A stretch of 64,000 nucleotides of DNA from Halopiger djelfimassiliensis. GTDB lineage: Archaea > Halobacteriota > Halobacteria > Halobacteriales > Natrialbaceae. Each line of letters begins with the position of its first letter. Position 1 is the first letter of the stretch. Location: contig NZ_HG315684.1 of the NCBI RefSeq assembly GCF_000455365.1, positions 581,611 to 645,610 on the forward strand, read 5' to 3'. Shown here one piece after another: positions 1 through 55,678 of this stretch. The notes under the pieces were generated by a model. The model was given only the letters and a program-made list of their open reading frames with translations. It was not told the origin of the DNA and made no database searches. The position numbers and the translations under genes are program-made.

Positions 1-660
1 GCCGTCAGTTCTCTCTCACCCATTCACTGGGAGAGGCCGGTGAACCGGTAAAACAGTTCTGCCCACTCCGTTGACGAATATCGTCGCGACGAACGGGCTC
101 ACGAGTCCAGCGTTTCCGGATAGAGGACACGACGCGCTACAGCACTCGAGTGAAAGGGGGGAGTTGCGAGAGCGGTGATGGGAGTGTGCTCACCGCAGAC
201 CCAGCCGCGAGCGTCGTTTCACTGGGGGGTGGATTGACAAGCGGATGGGGGGATGGAATGCCTCCAGACGATAGCTCGTCTGGATGGGCATGCTGTAGTT
301 ATTGGTGATAACTAATAATGCTTTGGAAGACGGATGTCTGACGTGGAGTGTATTTTCGAGGAAGAGACGAGTACAACCGAGCCGAAGATCACTATTCATT
401 TATTTTTCTTTCGCGCACGAATAGCCAAACCCCGAATAGATATATTATTTGATTAGAAGATACTATTGTTATCTCAGCAGTCGTTATTTCTTGTTCTAAA
501 GTGTAATAACAGAAGACTTATGCCGGCGACGGAATGATCTCACGAATACCCCACCCGGGAGAACCGTGTCGGAACTAGCGATGATCATGTCGGACGGATG
601 CCGATGGTCGTCTCCGTTGACCGTGCGCTAACCAACCAAAGCAGACAACACTCACAACAC
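1..660. other. intergenic region upstream of the S-layer gene
   Basis: No convincing gene is seen here. A short open frame runs off the left edge of the window in + frame 3 for about 24 codons (ending near 74), too little to identify. From about 400 the sequence is AT-rich, with TATA-like strings near 439-447 and 500-510 that could drive the S-layer gene. This suits the long untranslated leaders known for haloarchaeal S-layer genes, but the transcription start cannot be read from sequence. Confidence 0.5.
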
Positions 661-3549
661 ATGACAAACGAAGCAACATATCGTGAAAAGGGACGTGCAG
701 TGTTCCTGGCAGCGATTATGGTCCTGTCCGTTGTCGCCATGTCGACCGCATTCGCGGGATCGGTGGCAGCGAACGAGGACCTCGACCTTCAGATCACCAA
801 CGCCGATGAACTCGAGACGGTGTCTGAAGGAACTACGATCGACGTTGCGGTAGACGTATCGAACACTGGAAGCGAAAACGTAACCGAGACGGTCGAACTC
901 GAAGTCGACGGTGAAACCGAAGACTCCGAAGAGGTCACCGTCGAAGGCGAGACAACCGAATCCGTCACCCTCTCGTACGACACCAGCAACATGGCTGGTG
1001 AGGAGCTGACGCTCCAGGCCACCGCCGGCTCCGTCACGTCCGACGAAGTGACGATGTCCGTCACCGGTGAGCTCGACTTCAACCCGCCGTACTCGGAGTC
1101 CCGCGTCTACGAGGGTGACACGCTCTACGCCTACCCGGGCGAGGAGATCGACACCGAGAACAACGACTATCAGGTCCGTCGCGTCACCGACAAATCCGAC
1201 GGTAAGGTCACCGACAGCAAACACAAAACCGACCTCACCTCGGACGACCTGGTGGAGTACAAAAACACCGGTATCGAAGTGTTCGAGATCGATACCGAAG
1301 GGTTCGAGGACGACGACTACTTCGTCCGTAGCAGCGGTGACGACTTCGCGTACCAGCCCGACACCAGAGACACCTTCGAGGTCGGCGGTCAGACGCTCAA
1401 CGTCGAACTCGAGGACGACGAAGTGAGCAATGAACCGCCGCTGGCGACGACCGACCTCGACATCGAATCCAACCGTGGTCCGTTCAGCGTGCTCGTCGGT
1501 GCCGAAGGCGACCTCGACAACGAGGAACTGTTCAACATCTTCACGAACGGTCCCGAATCCGGCCCTGCCTACGACGACGACGAGGTCTACAAGGCCACCG
1601 AGGACGAACTCAACGACCTCGACGGGGACGTCGGTGTCGGTCCGTTCAACGCCGTCCTCCTCGAAGACGGCGAGGACGACTCGGACGAGAAGATCGCACT
1701 CGTCGGTCTCAGCGACCGCGAAAAGGCGCTCAACTTCACGGACATCGACGAAGACGTGTACAACCTCGAGTTCGAAGCTCCGAACACGAACGCTGAAGCG
1801 TCCGCCGAGATCGAGGTCACGGAACTCGACGTCGACGGTGGCTTCTCCGAGGGTGTTTACACCCAGACCGCCGGTGACTACGTCCAGGTCTCCCTCGAGC
1901 TCGAAGACACCGACGACACGTACATCCAGTTCGGTAACGCAGAGTCCCAATTCGTCGACATCCTCCACCTCGACGATGACGACGAAAACGACGAAGTGAG
2001 CTTCTGGATCAACACCCGTACGCTCGGTGACGACAAGTTCACGGACAGTACCGACGACGTGTACTACTCCGAGGACGACGAGATCGAAAGTCTCGTCCAC
2101 GGTGACGACTTCGAGGTCAACTTCTGGGACGAAGAAGTCGACAACGGAAACGAACTCGACGGCTTCGGCGAGTACCTCGAAGAGCTCGATCTGGTCAACA
2201 GTGCAGAGGACTGGGAGGACGGTGACGAGTACCAGCTCTCCCGACCGCTGCAGCCGACCGAGTACGAGCTAACGGCTTCTTCCAACGGTGACTTCATCGT
2301 CAACGACGACGGTGAAGCCGAGATCGACAACGAGATCGACCAGTCGATGGTCAATCTGGAGCCGCCAAGCGTCGAATCGATCAAGACCCACGCCACGCCG
2401 GCTGAATCCGCCGACGACAACGACCTCGAAGAGCTTCTCGGTGACGAGGTCACGCTGACCGAAAAGACCGAGATCGCCGAGGAGGACCGTCTGGTCATCG
2501 AAGCCGAAGCGAGCGGCTTCATCGGTGCACTGGCAGCCGCCTCCGGTGACGGCGTCGACGTCGTTACCGACGGCACCAGCGCCGACGGTCTCTACGCACT
2601 TACCGACAAGAAAGCCGAAGGTGAACACGGCCTCTCCTGGGAAGGTGAAGGTATCAACTTCGAGGTCACCGCCGACGACTCCGTCGGCAACCAGGACCCG
2701 ACCAGTCTCGCTCTCGAGGACGCGAACGACAAGGACGTTTACGTCCTCGCTGACAACGACGAGGGCGCCCTCTACGTGGTCGTCGACACCAGCACGAGCC
2801 GTGCCTGGGACGGCAGCCTCGAGCCCGACCACGAGTTCACCGCCGAACTCGAGTACGAGACTCACGACGAGGAACGCTACCACTTCGACGACCGTGGTGC
2901 CGAGGACACTGGCGGCGACGCAGCCTACCCGTACTTCGCGGCTGAGTCGACCGAGTCCGTGACCAAGGACTTCTCGATCGTCGAGCCCGCGGTCACGTTC
3001 GACCACCTCAACGAGGACGACGAAGTCGTCGTCCCGATCTCCGAGGATGCCGAAATCTCCGGGACGACGAACGTCGCGCCCGGTGCGGAGGCCAGCCTCC
3101 GACTGGCTGCCGACGAAGGCGTCGAGCCAGCGTTCCACAACACCCACGACCTCGAGATTGAGGACGACGGTGAGTTTACGCTGACCGCCGACTACGGCGA
3201 CCAGTCCGAAGGCGACACCGGTGAGGCTACCTTCCGCGCCTACGGTAGCAGCATCGACACCAACGATCTCGTCTTCGCCGAAGAGCTTCCGGGCGACGAA
3301 GAACCGGAGAACGGCGTCGAGAACGGTGACGAGAACGGCGACGAAAACGGTGACGAGAACGGCGTCGAGAACGGTGACGAGAACGGCGACGAAAACGGTG
3401 ACGAGAACGGCGTCGAGAACGGTGACGAGAACGGCGACGAAAACGGCGGCGAAGACGAGGGCGACGACGGCATGCCCGGCTTCGGCGTCGCAGTCGCGCT
3501 CGTTGCGCTCCTCGGTGCCGCGATGCTCGCGAGCCGTCGCCAGCACTAA
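661..3549 (+). CDS. csg: S-layer surface glycoprotein with PGF-CTERM anchor
   Basis: Major cell-surface glycoprotein, 962 aa from the chosen start. I start at the ATG at 661 rather than the in-frame ATG at 598 because residues 1-37 then form the typical haloarchaeal surface-glycoprotein signal peptide (basic YREKGR, then a hydrophobic stretch ending near FAGSVAAN). Residues about 40-140 look like an adhesion-type beta domain; the central part is very acidic and beta-rich. The C-terminus has an Asn/Gly/Asp/Glu spacer, the PGF motif (MPGFG), one transmembrane helix and a basic SRRQH tail. This is the archaeosortase (ArtA) processing and lipid-anchoring signal in known relatives. I find only two N-glycosylation sequons (N73-V-T and N358-F-T), and the usual Thr-rich spacer is missing. 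Confidence 0.93.
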   Translation: MTNEATYREKGRAVFLAAIMVLSVVAMSTAFAGSVAANEDLDLQITNADELETVSEGTTIDVAVDVSNTGSENVTETVELEVDGETEDSEEVTVEGETTESVTLSYDTSNMAGEELTLQATAGSVTSDEVTMSVTGELDFNPPYSESRVYEGDTLYAYPGEEIDTENNDYQVRRVTDKSDGKVTDSKHKTDLTSDDLVEYKNTGIEVFEIDTEGFEDDDYFVRSSGDDFAYQPDTRDTFEVGGQTLNVELEDDEVSNEPPLATTDLDIESNRGPFSVLVGAEGDLDNEELFNIFTNGPESGPAYDDDEVYKATEDELNDLDGDVGVGPFNAVLLEDGEDDSDEKIALVGLSDREKALNFTDIDEDVYNLEFEAPNTNAEASAEIEVTELDVDGGFSEGVYTQTAGDYVQVSLELEDTDDTYIQFGNAESQFVDILHLDDDDENDEVSFWINTRTLGDDKFTDSTDDVYYSEDDEIESLVHGDDFEVNFWDEEVDNGNELDGFGEYLEELDLVNSAEDWEDGDEYQLSRPLQPTEYELTASSNGDFIVNDDGEAEIDNEIDQSMVNLEPPSVESIKTHATPAESADDNDLEELLGDEVTLTEKTEIAEEDRLVIEAEASGFIGALAAASGDGVDVVTDGTSADGLYALTDKKAEGEHGLSWEGEGINFEVTADDSVGNQDPTSLALEDANDKDVYVLADNDEGALYVVVDTSTSRAWDGSLEPDHEFTAELEYETHDEERYHFDDRGAEDTGGDAAYPYFAAESTESVTKDFSIVEPAVTFDHLNEDDEVVVPISEDAEISGTTNVAPGAEASLRLAADEGVEPAFHNTHDLEIEDDGEFTLTADYGDQSEGDTGEATFRAYGSSIDTNDLVFAEELPGDEEPENGVENGDENGDENGDENGVENGDENGDENGDENGVENGDENGDENGGEDEGDDGMPGFGVAVALVALLGAAMLASRRQH
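3307..3447 (+). repeat. 48-bp tandem repeat encoding VENG(DENG)3
   Basis: Inside the S-layer gene, a 48-bp unit recurs with GTC valine codons at 3316, 3364 and 3412. It encodes VENG followed by DENG repeats, about 2.7 copies. The protein spacer just before the PGF anchor is therefore a low-complexity, highly charged string able to expand or contract in whole units. The equivalent region in well-studied haloarchaeal S-layer proteins is Thr-rich and O-glycosylated. Confidence 0.9.
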
Positions 3550-27667: not shown

Positions 27668-27997
27668 ATGGGAGTCCGGCCACCATCGAGCGGAGACGAC
27701 GACGAACCCGAGAGTATCGAATTCGGTATCGCCGCCGTCGACGCCCGCCTCAAGGACGCTGACCTTTCCTTTCCGGCGACGAAAGACGACGTCGCGGCAG
27801 CACTCGGCCACGAACACATCCCTTACGACGTGCACGGAAACGATGTCGCCCTCGGCGAGGTTCTCGAGGCGGTCGACGCCGAGGAGTTTCAGTCCCGACA
27901 GGAGCTACTGAACGAACTCCACGAACCCTTCGAGGAGTACCGACGGCACCACTCGGGTGGCGTGTTCCAACAGGTTCGGTCGATGCTTCCCTTCTAG
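27668..27997 (+). CDS. DUF5789-type small haloarchaeal protein
   Basis: 109 aa. The N-terminus is acidic; the core reads ESIEFGIAAVDARLKDADLSFPATKDDVAAALG then VALGEVLEAVDAEEFQSRQELL. From memory this resembles a haloarchaeal family of unknown function (DUF5789), small helical proteins in which a DARL...FPA motif is conserved. The 3' end overlaps the convergent glycosyltransferase gene by 4 bp. The role is unknown. Confidence 0.7.
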   Translation: MGVRPPSSGDDDEPESIEFGIAAVDARLKDADLSFPATKDDVAAALGHEHIPYDVHGNDVALGEVLEAVDAEEFQSRQELLNELHEPFEEYRRHHSGGVFQQVRSMLPF

Positions 27998-29040
27998 GTG
28001 TCGTCGTTTCGGTCTCGCTCTCCCGTCTCGCGTGTGATCCGTTCGAGTCGGCGTCGTTGTTCCCGGTGTAAGGTCACGAGCAGGTCCGAGAGCACGCCGA
28101 ACATCAACAACTGGACGCCGAGCAACACCGCAGCGGCCGAGACGACCGCGAGGATTTCGTGGCCCTGCTGGTACTGGATCCATTCCCAGAGAACGTACGT
28201 CGCAACGAAGCCGCCCGCGAGAATACCGGTCACGCCGAGGCTTCCAAAGTAAAACAGCGGGTTGTTGGTCTTTGCCAGCGAGTACAGTGCCAGAACGATC
28301 GTCCCGCCGTCCTTGAGCGGGTGAAGGTTCGTCTCCGATTCGTCGGGCCGGGCGCTGTAACTGATCGGGACGACCGTCGTCTCGACGCCGTGTTTTACGC
28401 ACTCGACGGCGAGTTCGGTCTCGATCGTGAAGCCGTCCGAATCGAGCGACAGGCGCTCGAAGGAGTCGACGGTAAACGCTCGGTAGCCGGACAGAATGTC
28501 CTCGTAGTCGGCCCCGTGAATGACACGGAACGCCCGATTGATCATCCGGTTGCCAAAGCCGTTGAGCGCACGCATCGCGTCGTCGTCCATGTCCGCAAAC
28601 CGGTTCCCGATGACGTGGTCGTAGCCCCGCGAGAGGGGCTCGAGCATCCGATCCGCGTCGGCCGGATCGTAGGTGCCGTCGCCGTCGAGCATCAGGACGT
28701 ACGGGACGGTGATGTACTCGACCGCCTCTCGAACGGCTTGACCTTTCCCGTCGCCGGACTGGGTCAGGACCTGCGCCCCGTGTTCGCTTGCGATCTCGCG
28801 CGTCTCGTCGTCCGAACCGCCGTCGATGACGACGACGTTCGTGTAGCCGTGCTCGTGAAAGCCGTCGATAACGTCGCCGATCGTCGCTGCCTCGTTCAGC
28901 GTCGGAATGAGGATACAGACCTCGTCGGCAGAGATCTCGCGCGTCCGCTCGCTCGCGGTCATGGCGACGACCTCTCCGCTGTGAGTGGTCGTTTCCGCGC
29001 GAGTCCCATCGTTCTCCATCGCCAGCCACTCATCGGTCAT
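27994..29040 (-). CDS. aglJ: AglJ-like dolichol-phosphate glycosyltransferase
   Basis: Family 2 glycosyltransferase likely adding the first sugar to dolichol phosphate on the cytoplasmic side. The GT-A domain (about 38-250) has ILIPTLNEAATIGDVI, VIDGGSDDETREIA, and the metal site MLDGDGTYDPAD (DxD-like). DILSGYRAFTVDSF and ETELAVECVKHG are typical of the dolichyl-phosphate mannose synthase group. Two C-terminal membrane helices (about 270-330) anchor it. Starts are possible at 29040 or at 28962 (MTASERTRE); the second fits known relatives better. It marks the left end of the N-glycosylation island. Confidence 0.82.
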   Translation of the reverse strand: MTDEWLAMENDGTRAETTTHSGEVVAMTASERTREISADEVCILIPTLNEAATIGDVIDGFHEHGYTNVVVIDGGSDDETREIASEHGAQVLTQSGDGKGQAVREAVEYITVPYVLMLDGDGTYDPADADRMLEPLSRGYDHVIGNRFADMDDDAMRALNGFGNRMINRAFRVIHGADYEDILSGYRAFTVDSFERLSLDSDGFTIETELAVECVKHGVETTVVPISYSARPDESETNLHPLKDGGTIVLALYSLAKTNNPLFYFGSLGVTGILAGGFVATYVLWEWIQYQQGHEILAVVSAAAVLLGVQLLMFGVLSDLLVTLHREQRRRLERITRETGERDRNDDT

Positions 29041-29144: not shown

Positions 29145-30440
29145 TCACCAGGTCAGACCCTCGTACACCTCGAGTTCGTCCTCGTCGACGGCGATTCGAC
29201 GACCGTCGGCGACGATACGACGGGCCATCCCTTCGAACGCGAGGTCGTCGAACTCCGGCCAGCCGGTCGCGACGACCGCGCCGTCGGCCCCCTCGAGTGC
29301 GTCGTCGGCCGACTCGGCGTACTCGATGTCGAGGTCGGGATACCGTTCGCGAACGTTCACCATCGCGACCGGATCGTACGCCACGACCTCGGCACCGCGC
29401 TCGCGGAGATCCCGGATCACGTCCAGCGCACGCGATTTCCGGATGTCGTCGGTTCCCGGCTTGAACGCCAGCCCGAGGACGGCGATACGGCTCCTCTCGA
29501 GTGCGACGTGGGTCGCCAACAAGTCGACGAGTCGTCGAGGTTGTCCGTCGTTGACCGCGACGACCGCATCGAGCAAGTCGGGATCGTATCCCTGCTCGCG
29601 GGCACCCGCTCTGAGTGCGTTGACGTCCTTCGGAAAACACGATCCGCCCCAGCCCAGTCCCGACCGCATGAACCGGTCGGAGATCCGGTCGTCGAGTCCC
29701 ACGGCCTCGAGCACGTCGTAGGCGTCAGCGCCGTACGCTTTGGCGATGTTGCCGAGTTCGTTGACCAACGAGACTTTCGACGCGAGGAAGGCGTTGTTCG
29801 CGTACTTGATGAGTTCGGCCTCTCGAACGCCGGTCTCGACGAGAGCGGTCTCCTCGCGCTCGAGAAGCGGGGCATAGAGGCTACGGAGTGTGGCCGCGGC
29901 GTCGTCGGTCGTCGCGCCGATGACGACCTTGTCCGGTTCGAGGAAGTCCTCGACCGCCGTCCCCATCCGCAGGAACTCCGGGTTCATTGCCAGTTCGATA
30001 CCGTCACCGACCGCTGTCCCGGACTCGGTCTCGAGGATCGGCCCGACGACGTCCTCGGTCGTGCCCGGCAAAACCGTACTCTTGACGACGACGAGATGCT
30101 CGTCGCGTTTGTCCGCGAGTGCCCGACCGAGCGATTCCGCGCCGACCTGCATCGGTGCCAGATCGAGACTGCCGTCCGCGGTCTGGGGCGTGGGTAGACA
30201 GAGAAACGTCACGTCAGTCCCGCGAACTTCGCTATAGTCGGTAGTCGCACGGAGGGTCGTACCCGCGTGGCTCTCGATCCGTTCCTCGAGACCCGACTCG
30301 TGGATCGGCGCGTCGCCGGCGTTGATCGTGGCGACGACCTCCTCGTCGATTTCGACGTTGACGACGTGATGCCCGAGATCAGCGAGGCACGCGGCGACGG
30401 TGGTTCCGACATAGCCGCTGCCGACGATAGAAACGTCCAT
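29145..30440 (-). CDS. aglM: UDP-glucose/UDP-sugar 6-dehydrogenase (AglM-like)
   Basis: Oxidises the C6 of a UDP-hexose to the uronic acid in two NAD-linked steps. The 431-aa protein has the N-terminal Rossmann loop SIVGSGYVGTTVAACLADLGH, catalytic Lys region YANNAFLASKVSLVNELGN, active-site Cys in GWGGSCFPKDVNAL, and the C-terminal UDP-binding domain (LGLAFKPGTDDIRKSRALDVI). I choose the ATG at 30440, which gives the standard MDVSIVGSGYVG. UDP-glucuronate would be the donor for AglG-type transferases in the same island. A UDP-ManNAc dehydrogenase is the alternative. Confidence 0.85.
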   Translation of the reverse strand: MDVSIVGSGYVGTTVAACLADLGHHVVNVEIDEEVVATINAGDAPIHESGLEERIESHAGTTLRATTDYSEVRGTDVTFLCLPTPQTADGSLDLAPMQVGAESLGRALADKRDEHLVVVKSTVLPGTTEDVVGPILETESGTAVGDGIELAMNPEFLRMGTAVEDFLEPDKVVIGATTDDAAATLRSLYAPLLEREETALVETGVREAELIKYANNAFLASKVSLVNELGNIAKAYGADAYDVLEAVGLDDRISDRFMRSGLGWGGSCFPKDVNALRAGAREQGYDPDLLDAVVAVNDGQPRRLVDLLATHVALERSRIAVLGLAFKPGTDDIRKSRALDVIRDLRERGAEVVAYDPVAMVNVRERYPDLDIEYAESADDALEGADGAVVATGWPEFDDLAFEGMARRIVADGRRIAVDEDELEVYEGLTW

Positions 30441-30561: not shown

Positions 30562-31941
30562 TTAGCCGTCGAGAATGGTCGCGATGTGCTGTCGCATCCG
30601 CGAACCGATCGGAATGTTCGCACAGCGATCGTCGAGGCCGATCGTCTGCAAGAGAAGACTCGAGTCGTCGAGCAAGGAAAGTTGCAGATACGTTCCTTCC
30701 CGGTAGCCGTCGCTCGTCCGGGTCATATCGATTATTTTCAACGTCTCGTACTCGCGGAGTTGATCGGTGATTCGTTTTTTCCCGAGGACGTTCGCGTCGA
30801 TCGCCTCGGCGAACGCCCGATAGACCCGATACATCTCGGTCGCCTTGAACGCCGACCGGTCGGTAAACTCGTCCATCGTCGCGAGGGCGGCGATCGCGAT
30901 CTTCGCCTGCGTCGGACAGCCCCGAATCAGGTCCTGAATCCGGGTGACCTCCGCGTCGTCGTTTGCTACGCGGACGTGTTCTTCCCGAACGCGCTCGGCG
31001 TCGTTCTCTCGAGCGACCTCGCCGGCGAGCCGAAAGAGATCGATCGCGCGCCGTGCGTCGCCGTGTTCCTGTGCGGAGAACGCAGAACAGAGCGGAACGA
31101 CGTCATCCGTGAGGACGTCGTCGCGGTATGCGTCGCGCCGACGATTCAAGATGTCTCCGAGTTGGTTCGCGTCGTACGCCGGGAAGACGATCTCGTCGGG
31201 GGAGAACGAACTCTCGACGCGAGTATCGAGTCGGTCGCCGTACTTGAGGTCGTTGCTGATGCCGACGACCGTGATGCTCGCCTCGACGTCGTTTTCCTCC
31301 CCGGCTCGCGAGAGCTGCATGAGGAGTTTGCTGTCGTCGGCTTCCTCGGGGGGAACGTTCTGGACGTCATCGGGCGGTGCGAGCCGATCGATCTCGTCGA
31401 GGACGACGATGATCGCGTCGTACAGGTCGTCGATGACCGCCCAGAGTCGATCGTAGTACGCTCCGGTCGAGATACCCGAGTGTGGGATCGTGATCCCGGT
31501 TTCGTCGGGATCGTTGAGGCTCTTTGCGAGGTGGATTACGGTCTGGACCTCCGAGCGGCGTTGGGCGCAGTCGATGACCGCTCGTCCGATTCGGACCCCG
31601 TTTTCCTCGCCGCGCTCGACGACTTCGCGGCTGACGTACCGCGTAACGAGGGTCTTTCCCGATCCGGATTTCCCGAGCAGGAGGGTTCCCTTTCCCGTCC
31701 CGCCGGAGATGGTCGGCTTGAGACGACGGGCAACGGTTTCGATCTGATTGTTTCGACCGACGATCTTGTTCTGATCCGGAACGTGATCGATACGAAGTAA
31801 ATCCTCGTTGGCGAAAATCCGGTCTTTCTCGTCGAGAACCGACAGCGGATCGTCGCGGGATTCGGAGCGAGAATGGGCAACGGCCCCATGCTCGGCGGCG
31901 TACTCGCCGAGCGATCGCAGTCCCTCCGTTCGTAAAGACAT
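30562..31941 (-). CDS. orc1/cdc6: Orc1/Cdc6-family replication initiator
   Basis: 459-aa AAA+ protein that binds origin recognition boxes and loads the MCM helicase. Features: Walker A LLGKSGSGKTLVTRY (about 90), Walker B VVLDEIDRLAPP (about 185), sensor 1 VVGISNDLKYGDRLDTRVESSF, sensor 2 GDARRAIDLFRLAGEVA, and a C-terminal winged helix (about 350-440). The start ATG at 31941 directly abuts an origin-box repeat, so the protein probably represses its own gene. The origin with six repeats lies immediately upstream. Confidence 0.94.
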   Translation of the reverse strand: MSLRTEGLRSLGEYAAEHGAVAHSRSESRDDPLSVLDEKDRIFANEDLLRIDHVPDQNKIVGRNNQIETVARRLKPTISGGTGKGTLLLGKSGSGKTLVTRYVSREVVERGEENGVRIGRAVIDCAQRRSEVQTVIHLAKSLNDPDETGITIPHSGISTGAYYDRLWAVIDDLYDAIIVVLDEIDRLAPPDDVQNVPPEEADDSKLLMQLSRAGEENDVEASITVVGISNDLKYGDRLDTRVESSFSPDEIVFPAYDANQLGDILNRRRDAYRDDVLTDDVVPLCSAFSAQEHGDARRAIDLFRLAGEVARENDAERVREEHVRVANDDAEVTRIQDLIRGCPTQAKIAIAALATMDEFTDRSAFKATEMYRVYRAFAEAIDANVLGKKRITDQLREYETLKIIDMTRTSDGYREGTYLQLSLLDDSSLLLQTIGLDDRCANIPIGSRMRQHIATILDG

Positions 31942-32632
31942 ACACCGCGTTTCAAATGAAATCGTCTTAGTCCTTTCCTTCCACCCACACCCGCCGTTCG
32001 AATCCCACTACTCGACCGGCGTTTGAATCCGACACCGGATTTCGGATGAAAGATCGCACGACCGAAGGCGGGACGGTCATCGGTCCCACACCGGATTTCA
32101 GATGATTTCGCCAACGAACGGCCTCGTGGGACCGGTGCGGTCACGCCCACACCGTATTTCAAATGAAATCGGTCGGAACCGAAGTGACAGTTCGGGAGGC
32201 CCATGAAGCGAGAAGACACCGTTCAAGTACTCGAGAACGGACGAGTTGCCGATCGGAAGCGGTCGGTCGCCGAAATCATCTGAAATCCGGTGTCGAACAC
32301 ACCTCGCTTCCACCGACCGACCGAACGAGCGTCCGGAGACACGACAGCGAACGTCACCGGGTAAACTTAAATAGGGTTCGGATATCCTACCGATCTTCGT
32401 ATTCGGCCATTTCAGTGCCGAAATCGCATTCTGATCATCGGACTCTTCCACATATATTACCTATACAGTAATAGTTATAATATAAAACAAACGGGGTCGT
32501 CGGTCACACCGGATGGAACCATCCCGAATCAGCCTGCAATAGCTTTCTCGAGCCGGATATCCGTTCTTGCTTTCCCCTCTCCGTTCTCTCCCTCCCCTGT
32601 TCGATAGGCCGAAATCATCTGAAATCCGGTGT
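31942..32632. other. oriC: replication origin (ORB repeats and unwinding element)
   Basis: Six copies of a 23-bp box with core ACACCGGATTTCAnATGA occur: forward at 31942, 32032, 32088 and 32149, and inverted at 32271-32293 and 32610-32632. They surround an AT-rich run at 32451-32491 (catatattacctatacag ... tataatataaaac), the likely duplex-unwinding element. Boxes pointing toward the AT-rich run from both sides next to an orc1/cdc6 gene are the defining layout of haloarchaeal origins. The box differs from the commonest haloarchaeal ORB, so it probably belongs to this particular Orc. Confidence 0.85.
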
Positions 32633-32719
32633 GGGAGGGAGAGGAACCCACCAGTACGCTACCGAACCCGGACAGTAACAGTTCGAAACACAGAACCAGC
32701 CCAATACGTCGACGGAAGC

Positions 32720-33454
32720 CTACTCGGCCGGCGTCGCTACTTCGCCGTCCTCGATCCGTGTTTCCGCTTCGTCTCGGTCCTCGGGATAGCCGACGTCGAT
32801 CCGCCACCCGTCCATCCGGATCGCGTCGATTGTTCGCCCGGACTGAATGAGCAGATCGATCGCGTCGGGGAGTTCGTACTCCCCGCGAGCGGACGGCTGC
32901 ACGAGGTGACACGCATGAAAGATCGCAGGCGTAAACGTATAGAAGCCGGTCATAACCAGGTTAGACGGCGGCTCGTCCGGTTTCTCCATGACCTCGACGA
33001 TCTCACCGTACTCGTTGGTGTCGAGAACGCCGTACCTGGACGCCTCCTCGTAGGGAACTTCCTCGACGAGAAACGCCGCATCGGCCCGGTCTTCGCGCTG
33101 TCGGTTGATAACGTCCCCGAGGTTGGCCCGGAAGACGTTGTCCCCGAGCATGAGGACGAAATCGTCGTCGACGTGTGGTTCCGCCTGTAGGATGGCGTGT
33201 GCCAGCCCCAACTGTTCGCGCTGGTGGGCGTAGGTTATCGGCACCCCCTCGTACTCGTCGCCGTATCGTTCGATAATCTGTTCTTTCTGATAGCCGACGA
33301 CGACGATGAACTCGGTTACACCGATCTCGAGGAGATTATCGAAGACGTCCTCGATGAGGGGTTTGCCGTCGACTTCAACGAGGACCTTGGGTTTGTCCTC
33401 GGTGAGCGGCCGAAGGCGCGTCCCTTTGCCTGCGGCCAACACGACTGCTTGCAT
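32720..33454 (-). CDS. aglF: sugar-1-phosphate nucleotidylyltransferase (AglF-like)
   Basis: Makes an NDP-sugar (probably UDP-glucose) from NTP and sugar-1-phosphate. 244 aa with the nucleotide-binding signature AVVLAAGKGTRLRPLTEDKPK, the metal Asp in MLGDNVFRANL, EKPDEPPSNLVMTGFY, and the final WRIDVGYPEDRDEA segment containing the second metal ligand. The ATG at 33454 places M-Q-A-V-V at the N-terminus; a TATA-like tatatatt lies at about 33479-33488. The C-terminal left-handed helix domain of longer homologues is missing, as usual for this group. Confidence 0.87.
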   Translation of the reverse strand: MQAVVLAAGKGTRLRPLTEDKPKVLVEVDGKPLIEDVFDNLLEIGVTEFIVVVGYQKEQIIERYGDEYEGVPITYAHQREQLGLAHAILQAEPHVDDDFVLMLGDNVFRANLGDVINRQREDRADAAFLVEEVPYEEASRYGVLDTNEYGEIVEVMEKPDEPPSNLVMTGFYTFTPAIFHACHLVQPSARGEYELPDAIDLLIQSGRTIDAIRMDGWRIDVGYPEDRDEAETRIEDGEVATPAE

Positions 33455-33592
33455 ACTGGTGTGCATTTTATTCGCACAATATATACTTTCGGGGACAGCG
33501 ATTCGTGGACAGATACTGGTAATGCACTATTATACCGGTGCGAAGCGTCCGTGGTCGTTTGCCATCCGTTGTTAATCCACTAGCCCGAACCG

Positions 33593-52738: not shown

Positions 52739-55678
52739 ATGAGTACCGATACCGAACGCATCGAGGAGGAGGCCGAGACATCCTCGTCTCTCCTCGAGAC
52801 GTTGGAAAACTGGTATCACGTCCCCGTCATCGGGGCCGTGATGCTGTTTATGATCTGGGTGCGGACCCAATCCTACAGTAACTTCGTCACCGAGGATGGG
52901 TCTCCGGCCCTGGCTGCAGTCGACTCGTGGTATCACTGGCGCACGGTACAGTGGACGGCGGAGAACTATCCCTATACGATGCCGTACGACATCTGGACCG
53001 GGTTCCCGACCGGGCGATACGTCGGCCAGTTCGGGACGCTGTTCGATCAGTTGATCGTCACGGCGGCGATGATCGTCGGGTTCGGCGATCCATCGACGGA
53101 AACGCTATATACCGTGTCCCTGCTCGCGGTGCCGGTGATGGCTGCACTCATCGCGATCCCGGTGTTTTACATGGGCCGACGACTCGGCGGGACGATCGGC
53201 GGGATCGTTGCGATTCTCGTGCTCGCGCTCGCTCGAGGGCAGTTCCTCTCGCGAACGAACGTGGGACAACTCCAGCACCACGTTGCGGAGGTCCTGTTCA
53301 TGGCGATCGCCGTGCTCGCGATGATGGTTGCGCTTCGGGTCGCCGAACGCGAAAAGCCGATCTACGAACTGGTTGCGGACGGTGACTGGGAGACGCTCCG
53401 CCGGCCGGCAATCTACAGTGTCCTTGCGGGGCTGGCCCTCTCACTGTACATCTGGGTGTGGCCACCGGGCGTCGTACTGATCGGGATCCTCGCGGTTTTC
53501 TTCACCGTACAGCTTTGTCTCGACTACGTCCGTAACGTGTCGCCGGACCACGTCGCCTTCGTCGGCGCGATCAGCCTCGGTCTCACGGCGCTCGTAACGG
53601 CGGTGTTGATCGAAGAGCCCGGAACGAGCGTGACGAGCTTCGGCTACCTGCAGCCACTCAGCGCGGCGCTCGTCGCGGGCGGCTGTGTGTTCATGGCCTG
53701 GTTGGCCCGGCAGTGGAACGACTACGGGGTCGATCGACGGTACTACCCGGTCGCAGTCGCCGGACTGATCGCCGCAACGTTCGGGGTCCTGTGGCTTGTC
53801 CTCCCGGACCTGTTCAGCACCATCACGAACAACCTGACCGGTCGGGTTCTTCCGTTTGGCGAGTCGGCGACCGATCTCACGATTCAGGAGGCGCAGCCGC
53901 CGAGCGACTTCCCCGGTCATGTAAGAGACGAGTTCGGCGCGGCGTTCTACACGATGCTCGCGGGTCTCGTCTTCCTCGTCGCACGCCCCTTCCTGGGGCG
54001 GGAATACCGTGCCGAATACACGCTGGTCATCGTTTGGTCGCTGTTTTTGACCAGCATGGCCGCGACCCAGATTCGGTTCTCGTACTATCTGGTGCTTGCC
54101 GTAGCGGTCGTCAACGCCGTCTTCGTCGCGGATGTCGTGCGACTGTTCAACCTGGATCTTTCGGGCGGGATCGAATCGCTCCGTCGTATCGAAACCTATC
54201 AGATCATCATCCTGTTCATGATCGTCATGCTGTTGTTCGCACCGCTGCTCCCGCCGATCGCCGCCGAAGGGACGACGGCATGGGAGCAGACCGACAACGC
54301 CCAACCGCATCCCGATGCCATGGTCTGGGAAGAGTCGAACCACTGGCTCGCCGAAAATACCCCCGAGCCCGGTAACTGGGGTGGGGCGGACAAGGCCGAC
54401 GAACTCGAGCTCTACGGCACGTACAATTACCCCGAGGACGGTGACTACGACTATCCCGACGGAACCTACGGCGTGATGTCGTGGTGGGACTACGGCCACC
54501 TGATAACGACACAGGCCAATCGGATACCCCACTCCAACCCGTTCCAGCAGAACGCTCGCTCGTCATCGGCGTTCCTGACCGCCGAATCCGAAGAGCGGTC
54601 CGAACTGATCCTCGATTCGATCGCGACGGGCGCATCCGTCAGCGGCAAGTCCAACGAGGAACTCGAGTCGATAATCGCGAACGAGGACGAATCGGACGAG
54701 GAGATCCGGTACGTGATGATCGACGACCAGATGGCCGGCGGGAAGTTCTCCGCGATCTCGACGTGGACTGGCCCCGGCTACGACCACTACACGACACCCG
54801 AGGATTACGAAGCGGGCGAGCAGATCAGCCGCGACGAGGTTAGAGAGCGGTTCGCCAACGTCCCGTACGACAATACGACGCTGTCCCGGCTGTACTTCGA
54901 CGACGCGGCCGGAATGGAACACTACCGGCTCGTACACGAAAACGACAAGCGAACATCGACGTTCATCAGCTATGCGGTCGTGCGGCAGGATAACGATCAG
55001 GTGCTGCTCGGGGAGGACGGGAGTCCGCAGGTGTTCGTGAACCAACAGGTGAACCAGTTGACCCAGGTGCGTCTCGCGCAGATCCAGCGGCATCAGAATC
55101 TGGATTACGAGATCATCGATCAACGGCAGGGTGCCGCAGTCAAGACCTACGAACGGGTCGAGGGGGCGACGATCACCGGGACGCTCGACGACGAGAACGT
55201 CACCGACGAGGACGTCACGGTGACCGCCTCGGTCGAACTCGAGACGAACGCGGATCGTGGCACGTTCAACTACACCCAGCGGGCCGAAGTCGACGACGAC
55301 GGCAGCTTCGAACTGACGGTCCCGTACGCGACGAACGACGAACTCGGCGTCGAGGACGGGTACACGAACAGCAGCGTCGAAGCGACCGGCGACTACAACG
55401 TGAGTGCCACCGTCTCGAACGAGAACGGATTCACCGTCTATCAGGGACAGACGTCGGTGCCGGAGACCACGGTTATCGAGGGTGAGACGGTCGACGTCGA
55501 CCTCGAGCAAGCCGAGGAAGTCGAGTTCAACGAATCCGGCAACGAAACCGAAGGCGAAAGCGACGAGGGCGCGGTCGACGGCGAGAACGCTGACGGCGAG
55601 AACGATACTGACAGCGGTGAGTCGGCCGACAACGAAACGGACGCGTCGCTCGCACCGATCGCCGAGCCGGCGCGGTAA
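52739..55678 (+). CDS. aglB: archaeal oligosaccharyltransferase
   Basis: 979-aa membrane enzyme that transfers the dolichol-linked glycan to Asn in N-x-S/T sequons outside the cell. About 12-13 membrane helices in the first 515 residues, with the first-loop acidic motif AVDSWYHWRTVQ and a later RTNVGQLQHHVAEV DxE-type-loop region. The soluble domain has the catalytic WWDYGHL (W582). The C-terminal part (about 800-979) is a beta domain and a very acidic Glu/Gly/Asn tail. Length and order match haloarchaeal AglB. Confidence 0.96.
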   Translation: MSTDTERIEEEAETSSSLLETLENWYHVPVIGAVMLFMIWVRTQSYSNFVTEDGSPALAAVDSWYHWRTVQWTAENYPYTMPYDIWTGFPTGRYVGQFGTLFDQLIVTAAMIVGFGDPSTETLYTVSLLAVPVMAALIAIPVFYMGRRLGGTIGGIVAILVLALARGQFLSRTNVGQLQHHVAEVLFMAIAVLAMMVALRVAEREKPIYELVADGDWETLRRPAIYSVLAGLALSLYIWVWPPGVVLIGILAVFFTVQLCLDYVRNVSPDHVAFVGAISLGLTALVTAVLIEEPGTSVTSFGYLQPLSAALVAGGCVFMAWLARQWNDYGVDRRYYPVAVAGLIAATFGVLWLVLPDLFSTITNNLTGRVLPFGESATDLTIQEAQPPSDFPGHVRDEFGAAFYTMLAGLVFLVARPFLGREYRAEYTLVIVWSLFLTSMAATQIRFSYYLVLAVAVVNAVFVADVVRLFNLDLSGGIESLRRIETYQIIILFMIVMLLFAPLLPPIAAEGTTAWEQTDNAQPHPDAMVWEESNHWLAENTPEPGNWGGADKADELELYGTYNYPEDGDYDYPDGTYGVMSWWDYGHLITTQANRIPHSNPFQQNARSSSAFLTAESEERSELILDSIATGASVSGKSNEELESIIANEDESDEEIRYVMIDDQMAGGKFSAISTWTGPGYDHYTTPEDYEAGEQISRDEVRERFANVPYDNTTLSRLYFDDAAGMEHYRLVHENDKRTSTFISYAVVRQDNDQVLLGEDGSPQVFVNQQVNQLTQVRLAQIQRHQNLDYEIIDQRQGAAVKTYERVEGATITGTLDDENVTDEDVTVTASVELETNADRGTFNYTQRAEVDDDGSFELTVPYATNDELGVEDGYTNSSVEATGDYNVSATVSNENGFTVYQGQTSVPETTVIEGETVDVDLEQAEEVEFNESGNETEGESDEGAVDGENADGENDTDSGESADNETDASLAPIAEPAR

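Follow-up and report, generated by a model that had tools for sequence, protein, structure and literature searches.

The module of about 2.07 kb that separates aglF from aglM in Halopiger djelfimassiliensis is probably a complete secondary chromosomal origin of a plasmid-type family, which would have been captured once between these two genes and kept since. It consists of an orc1/cdc6 gene and the 778-bp intergenic region that reaches up to aglF, and lies in the 64-kb stretch of DNA that was analysed (hereafter the window). Haloarchaeal origins associated with orc/cdc6 genes, their spread and their neighbourhood of polysaccharide genes are already described in print (PMC3528665, PMC7921747), and the predicted origin of the window is, as far as its sequence goes, of this known kind.

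The initial annotation had described six ORB boxes, four forward and two inverted, and this layout was borne out (Table 1). Six copies of the 19-nt box CACACCGGATTTCAGATGA lie in the module with zero to four mismatches, four in forward and two in inverted orientation. With up to three mismatches, five copies were found in the window as compared with a mean of 0.02 in 100 shuffles of it, none of which reached five. The whole 3.78-Mb genome contains six such matches, five in the module and one elsewhere, and the reversed pattern gave no match in the same genome at the same threshold. The array starts at 31941, where ORB1 ends on the A of the orc1 start codon, and not at 31942 as first given. Despite its four mismatches we consider ORB1 to be real, because it occupies the same position relative to the orc1 ATG across copies, i.e., exactly -18 to 0 in 17/17 copies at the island (the window's included) and in 14 of 18 other copies. 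An AT-rich element had also been placed within the array, correctly so, but the stretch in question (28% GC at 32430-32489) is flanked by the two inverted boxes, ORB5 and ORB6, and does not separate the forward from the inverted set; ORB1 to ORB4 stand in the opposite orientation on one side.

The layout is much alike in relatives: several boxes are grouped near orc1, usually a further pair faces the other way, and the AT-rich stretch lies among the latter. At least two such ORBs (up to five mismatches) are present in 34 of the 35 origins of the clade; locus L099 has one box and L100 has weak ones only. Among 30 loci recognised by the core pattern described below, 12 have other Orcs, and ORBs of the window's Orc family (up to four mismatches) were found in none of these 12. 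As in other orc/cdc6-associated haloarchaeal origins, the ORB sequence thus appears to be linked to the Orc family. In Haloarchaeobius sp. FL176 (L057:9467-10001, the same locus as L025), the ORB array has grown to eight same-facing boxes, six of which follow an exact period of 63 nt.

Table 1. Features of the predicted origin and of the surrounding glycosylation genes, in window coordinates.
Feature	Position	Strand	Remarks
aglJ, S-layer glycoprotein N-glycosyltransferase	27994..29040	-	TIGR04182, 458 bits (cut-off 325)
aglM, UDP-glucose 6-dehydrogenase; downstream neighbour of the presumed insertion	29145..30440	-	NF041297, 689 bits (cut-off 670)
Box before aglM, CCAAAAACGACTAA	30472..30485	-	same kind of box before aglM in Natrialba and in origin-free loci
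orc1/cdc6 initiator gene, 459 aa; predicted cognate initiator	30562..31941	-	TIGR02928, 382 bits (cut-off 181); PF22703, PF09079
ORB1	31941..31959	+	4 mismatches (weakest box); overlaps A of orc1 ATG; predicted autoregulatory operator
Predicted orc1 promoter box, GGAAAGGACTAAG	31966..31978	-	upstream of ORB1; putative promoter role
ORB2	32031..32049	+	2 mismatches
ORB3	32087..32105	+	reference copy
ORB4	32148..32166	+	2 mismatches
ORB5, inverted	32276..32294	-	1 mismatch
AT-rich unwinding element; conserved 26-nt core, TATTATAACTATTACTGTATAGGTAA	32435..32487 (core 32457-32482)	-	matrix and pattern match
ORB6, inverted	32615..32633	-	0 mismatches; outer edge of the module
aglF, UTP-glucose-1-phosphate uridylyltransferase; upstream neighbour of the presumed insertion	32720..33466	-	NF041313, 436 bits (cut-off 400)
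aglB, oligosaccharyltransferase; other end of the island	52739..55678	+	PF02516, PF22627, PF18079

The gene adjoining the array had been named orc1/cdc6, in agreement with its TIGR02928 score above the cut-off and its PF09079 and PF22703 matches. The encoded protein has the Walker A motif GKSGSGKT as well as Walker B and sensor motifs, and combines an AAA+ lid with a winged-helix domain; its nearest solved structures are those of archaeal Orc1/Cdc6 proteins (2v1u, 2qby). Four Orc genes of the genome exceed the family cut-off. On the 1.18-Mb contig that includes the window, no Orc gene other than this one was found; the best-scoring of the four, which is taken by its score to be of the oriC1 type, lies on another contig. 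Two copies in other genera seem to be frameshifted, one in Haladaptatus sp. DYF46 (L066:10001-11369) and one in Halalkalicoccus sp. FCH27 (L098:6001-7367), as judged from split or short matches; the latter copy has no annotated gene.

Upstream of orc1, a AAAGAACTAA-type box precedes ORB1 by about 6 nt in 30 of 31 aligned copies (L052 differs). ORB1 is therefore flanked by a predicted promoter box and the ATG, which is the place of an operator and suggests that Orc1 may repress its own gene through ORB1. The boxes before orc1 (GGAAAGGACTAAG) and aglM (CCAAAAACGACTAA) are similar, both lie a few tens of nucleotides before the start codon, and they possibly belong to one promoter class.

The AT-rich stretches of the relatives contain a conserved element of 53 nt, TATTATAtATtTTACTnTAnnGGTAA, followed by TAG repeats. 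Its core has the form TATTATATAT-n-TTACTnTAnnGGTAA, and in most relatives the repeats come after it. A matrix built from 22 relatives, with the window and genome G093 left out, scored 37.4 bits on the window copy versus -3.6 bits for the next best site in 400 kb of the same genome, and 51.0 bits on the G093 copy versus 2.7 bits for the next best. The element is missing in three of the 35 origins of the family (L026, L064 and L099). TAG repeats of at least 9 nt accompany 14 of the 18 copies outside the island and 16 of the 17 island copies, on the other strand in four copies from Natrialba; repeats of at least 12 nt occur once in 1.2 Mb of background. The window is the exception among the island copies, as no TAG repeat of at least 9 nt was found upstream of its orc1, although the core is kept.

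The model that we propose is that Orc1-ATP would bind to the ORBs flanking the AT-rich element, the DNA would open at the 26-nt core, and MCM would then be loaded so that replication could proceed in both directions. Self-repression of orc1 through ORB1 would limit initiation, and the neighbouring glycan genes, with an upstream box of their own, would be bystanders.

The pattern of the 26-nt core was also searched alone in 392 genomes of the order. With up to three mismatches it gave 46 matches in 44 genomes, the window core among them, as compared with four for the reversed control. An Orc1/Cdc6 gene lies near 43 of the 46 matches, belonging to the window's family in 27 cases and to other families in 16, and the remaining three have no Orc nearby. 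Because several of the 16 other-family cases are near copies from one genus, they correspond to perhaps seven or eight independent ones. TAG-type repeats follow the core in six of 13 other-family loci tested. The core is not universal and is absent from 19 of 20 other Orc loci, the only exception being L266. This locus (near 2749-2801) represents another Orc family (G093 near 3.88 Mb; L277, L298-L301, L337-L339) that has the same core without window-type ORBs. Measured against a background of up to 17.8 bits, one of the three Orc loci of pNRC200 from Halobacterium reached 28.2 bits (L334 near 1221), with a related AT-rich element, and pHH400 gave 15.0 bits. Both Orc loci of pHME505, which we take to be the pHM500 replicon, stayed at background (6.5 and 2.1 bits). 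The oriP2 of pHM500 has been reported as active (PMC4595724). In viral contigs, a shortened core pattern marked 18 stretches, none of which had an Orc match.

We then turned to the genomic site. The naming of an N-glycosylation island with aglM and aglF beside the origin proved right, because aglJ, aglM and aglF all pass curated NCBIfam cut-offs and aglB is present at the other end; the position of the module inside this island is backed by its anatomy and conservation. The start of aglM was set where the NF041297 profile begins, at residue 62 of the open frame. The window also encodes, about 25 kb away from aglJ, a likely cell-surface glycoprotein of 983 aa (598-3549) that has DUF7827 and a PGF-CTERM sorting motif. 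Orc1 proteins with at least 75% identity to that of the window are found in 21 of 125 Natrialbaceae genomes, i.e., the window's own, 7/7 Natrialba, 9/9 Natronococcus and four scattered ones. The module occupies the aglF/aglM/aglJ site in all 17 genomes examined from Natrialba, Natronococcus and Halopiger (the window's). Natrialba shares the window's order, aglF-origin-orc1-aglM-aglJ. Natronococcus lacks aglM at the site, and in three genomes aglF as well; in G093, orc1 is followed by a stretch that, read by eye, resembles a decayed aglM start. Of the 17 genomes, 16 have aglJ on the orc1 contig, either next to orc1 or with aglM alone in between; the remaining one (G042) has a contig end on the aglJ side and aglF on the other.

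For comparison, 107 genomes were considered that lack the island origin and have aglJ. At least 35 of them have aglF in the same orientation no more than 20 kb upstream of aglJ, and in at least 21, drawn from at least eight genera, the aglF-aglJ gap measures 1.2-2.6 kb and leaves room for aglM only. In 15 origin-free loci, picked for the closeness of the two genes, the aglF-aglM spacing is 39-411 nt in 12 and 1.3-2.8 kb in the other three. A CCAAAAACGACTAA-like box precedes aglM in origin-free loci, and in Natrialba as well as in the window this box is kept behind orc1, which places the module between aglF and the box that belongs to aglM. Capture of the origin into an older gene set is thus supported, and the earlier idea that the origin had arrived with the island is contradicted by these origin-free arrangements. 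A role of the origin in shaping the island, suggested at the same time, finds no backing either, since origin-free loci are also variable beside aglF and Orc genes do not lie near GT4 glycosyltransferases beyond chance. In seven complete genomes, five of 39 other Orc genes were within 25 kb of a GT4 gene (null mean 4.1, p 0.39, the chromosome length of G062 being entered as a rounded 3.8 Mb). This distance test also ruled out a general attraction of origins to glycan genes.

Outside the three genera, relatives of the window Orc1 at 79-87% identity occur in Haladaptatus, Haloferax, Haloarcula, Halalkalicoccus, Halorussus, Halobellus and others. A plasmid collection gave 410 records that match the window Orc1, seven of them at 80-84% identity, and parA lies near orc1 in four of six of these seven whose annotation was inspected. 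No parA match was found in the 64-kb window, where a parA belonging to orc1 was either lost or never captured. A tree of 38 Orc1 proteins unites the 17 island copies in one clade (100/99), which is nested within a diversity of relatives often found on plasmids. The earliest branches of the family lead to a copy from a Halobaculum plasmid, to that of G012 and to two from Halorussus (one on a plasmid), the deepest order being unsure as long branches join at the root. Given this nesting among relatives often carried on plasmids, some beside parA, the predicted origin is best described as a plasmid-type replicon that was captured; it is old and subject to purifying selection. That the origin itself was exchanged, which the initial annotation had considered, is supported by this nesting, and the Orc1 tree and the common site together support a single insertion at the site. 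No trace of an insertion mechanism was identified.

At four-fold sites, identity between the genera is 0.49-0.61 for orc1 versus 0.59-0.70 for three core genes, and the island Orc1 proteins are 91-95% identical to that of the window. The low four-fold-site identity together with the high protein identity indicates that orc1 is old and constrained and did not arrive recently; a recent transfer between the three genera was ruled out by the same comparison with the core genes. The island orc1 is under purifying selection, with no internal stops in 17/17 copies, one of them cut by a contig end. The genomes that hold the origin are not grouped in a species tree of three linked core genes (p-AU 0.048) or in the rpoB tree (p-AU 0.014), where they are basal and apart; both trees are poorly resolved. 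Nor are the holders grouped in the aglF, aglJ and aglM trees, yet there grouping is not rejected (p-AU 0.097, 0.059 and 0.42, respectively). Since the species trees do not group the holders, pure vertical descent after one insertion is uncertain, and spread of the origin by recombination of the island is an alternative.

The same trees bear on an origin that would be ancestral at this site in the family, the origin-free genomes having deleted it exactly between aglF and aglM. The basal and separate holders in the rpoB tree and their failure to form one clade in the three-gene tree would be compatible with such a history; we nevertheless find it unlikely, as the origin-free order seen in at least eight genera would demand many exact losses, and the island Orc1s form one clade inside a wider and often plasmid-borne diversity. 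For Haloarcula, Wu and colleagues (2012) proposed that island and origin were transferred together as one block, the origins there being described in divergent, polysaccharide-rich regions (PMC3528665), and a variable region of Haloferax gibbonsii holds orc10/orc11 with aglF/aglM (PMC7921747). In our case a joint transfer is highly improbable: the aglF-aglM-aglJ core exists without the origin in those eight or more genera, and none of 13 scanned non-island relatives (79-87% identity) has aglF, aglM or aglJ beside orc1, several of their flanks being cut by contig ends. We also considered that orc1, aglM and aglJ form one transcript that couples replication control to glycosylation. The genes share a strand, orc1 and aglM are 121 nt apart in the window, and short orc1-aglJ gaps occur in several Natronococcus genomes. 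Given that aglM has retained a box of its own upstream, behind orc1, and that TATA-like stretches precede aglJ in several Natronococcus genomes, we regard this coupling as quite unlikely and dropped it as the main reading.

Whether a captured origin still fires is a separate matter, and GC skew gives a mixed picture. The switch in GC skew that had been put forward as a check is absent at the origin in the window's genome, and also in G093. In N. magadii (G045), the cumulative GC skew over 400 kb peaks 1.4 kb from the origin point (G045:C1 938917), just past the aglF start. Skew therefore backs firing in one of three genomes at best. For Haloquadratum, predicted origins have been described near high points of the cumulative skew curve (PMC3119063). 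The distance between the island site and the best-scoring orc amounts to 0.25-0.36 of the chromosome in four complete genomes; in N. magadii this orc coincides with the major origin predicted in PMC3403918. In G094, the best-scoring orc occurs in two copies of equal score, one near each end of the chromosome contig (G094:C1 16466 and 3952758), which could be a real duplication or stem from overlapping assembly ends. A dormant or dead origin, i.e., a former replicon that does not fire and whose orc1 is kept for another reason, is a possibility to which we give some weight, though we doubt it. The missing TAG repeats, by which the window differs from every other island copy, would fit a weak or dormant origin, as does the lack of a skew signal in its genome, and a later-acquired origin of Haloferax mediterranei is reported to be dormant in the wild type (PMC4595724). 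Against dormancy stand the purifying selection on orc1 with its intact reading frames and the retention of both ORBs and core by an origin whose acquisition was not recent.

The preferred reading, a plasmid-type origin captured between aglF and aglM, can be set beside known systems. Like the haloarchaeal origins of Wu et al. 2012, as described in the accessible part of that paper (PMC3528665), it has an orc1/cdc6 gene and family-specific ORBs on both sides of an AT-rich region, and its distribution across chromosomes and plasmids is patchy. It differs from them in being fixed in a conserved gene set, at the same place in three genera, and not in a strain-specific region that diverges between close relatives as in Haloarcula; the conserved core in the AT-rich element has no mention in the same part of the paper. 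Closest are pHME132 of Haloferax mediterranei and pHG3 of Haloferax gibbonsii, with Orc1 proteins 83-84% identical to the window's, the same ORBs and the same unwinding element (75.8 bits for pHME132, which is a seed of the matrix, and 52.5 bits for pHG3). Unlike the window locus, these two are plasmid-borne and lie beside parA, without glycan genes in the stretch read.

The core itself recalls the ucm of Sulfolobales, which is bound by UBP and described as a short conserved motif in the unwinding element that is common to origins with different initiators (PMC12141716). The ucm is an 11-bp sequence, however, and the core is by eye dissimilar to the oligonucleotide printed in that paper, so that the likeness is one of role and position and not of sequence. 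The TAG repeats of most relatives resemble the DnaA-trio of bacterial oriC, where 5'-TAG-3' (3'-GAT-5') repeats also lie beside an AT-rich stretch (PMC8287927). In contrast to the DnaA-trio, the initiator here would be an archaeal Orc1 and not DnaA, the strand is flipped in four Natrialba, and the window has no repeats; moreover, those of the relatives lie more than 100 nt from the nearest ORB, as compared with a limit of about 16 nt to the initiator box given for the trio (PMC8287927). Neither this unwinding core nor, for archaeal origins, any trio-like repeats were found mentioned in the accessible parts of the literature searched, supplements aside. As a tentative proposal, and one that could well be wrong, the core may be an initiator-independent opening element of haloarchaeal origins and the euryarchaeal counterpart of ucm, recognised by a shared factor or, as a single strand, by MCM or Orc1; the TAG repeats might then work like the DnaA-trio as a landing strip for the AAA+ initiator.

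Taken as a captured replicon, the module offers a bounded case of how archaeal chromosomes may gain extra origins, in which a plasmid-type replicon would have entered a conserved group of genes and persisted there for long. It also provides the unwinding core, a cis element recognised from sequence alone that leads to origins of several Orc families and can serve as a concrete bait for further searches. For us, the most interesting part is this shared core, which is testable and reaches beyond the Orc family of the window.
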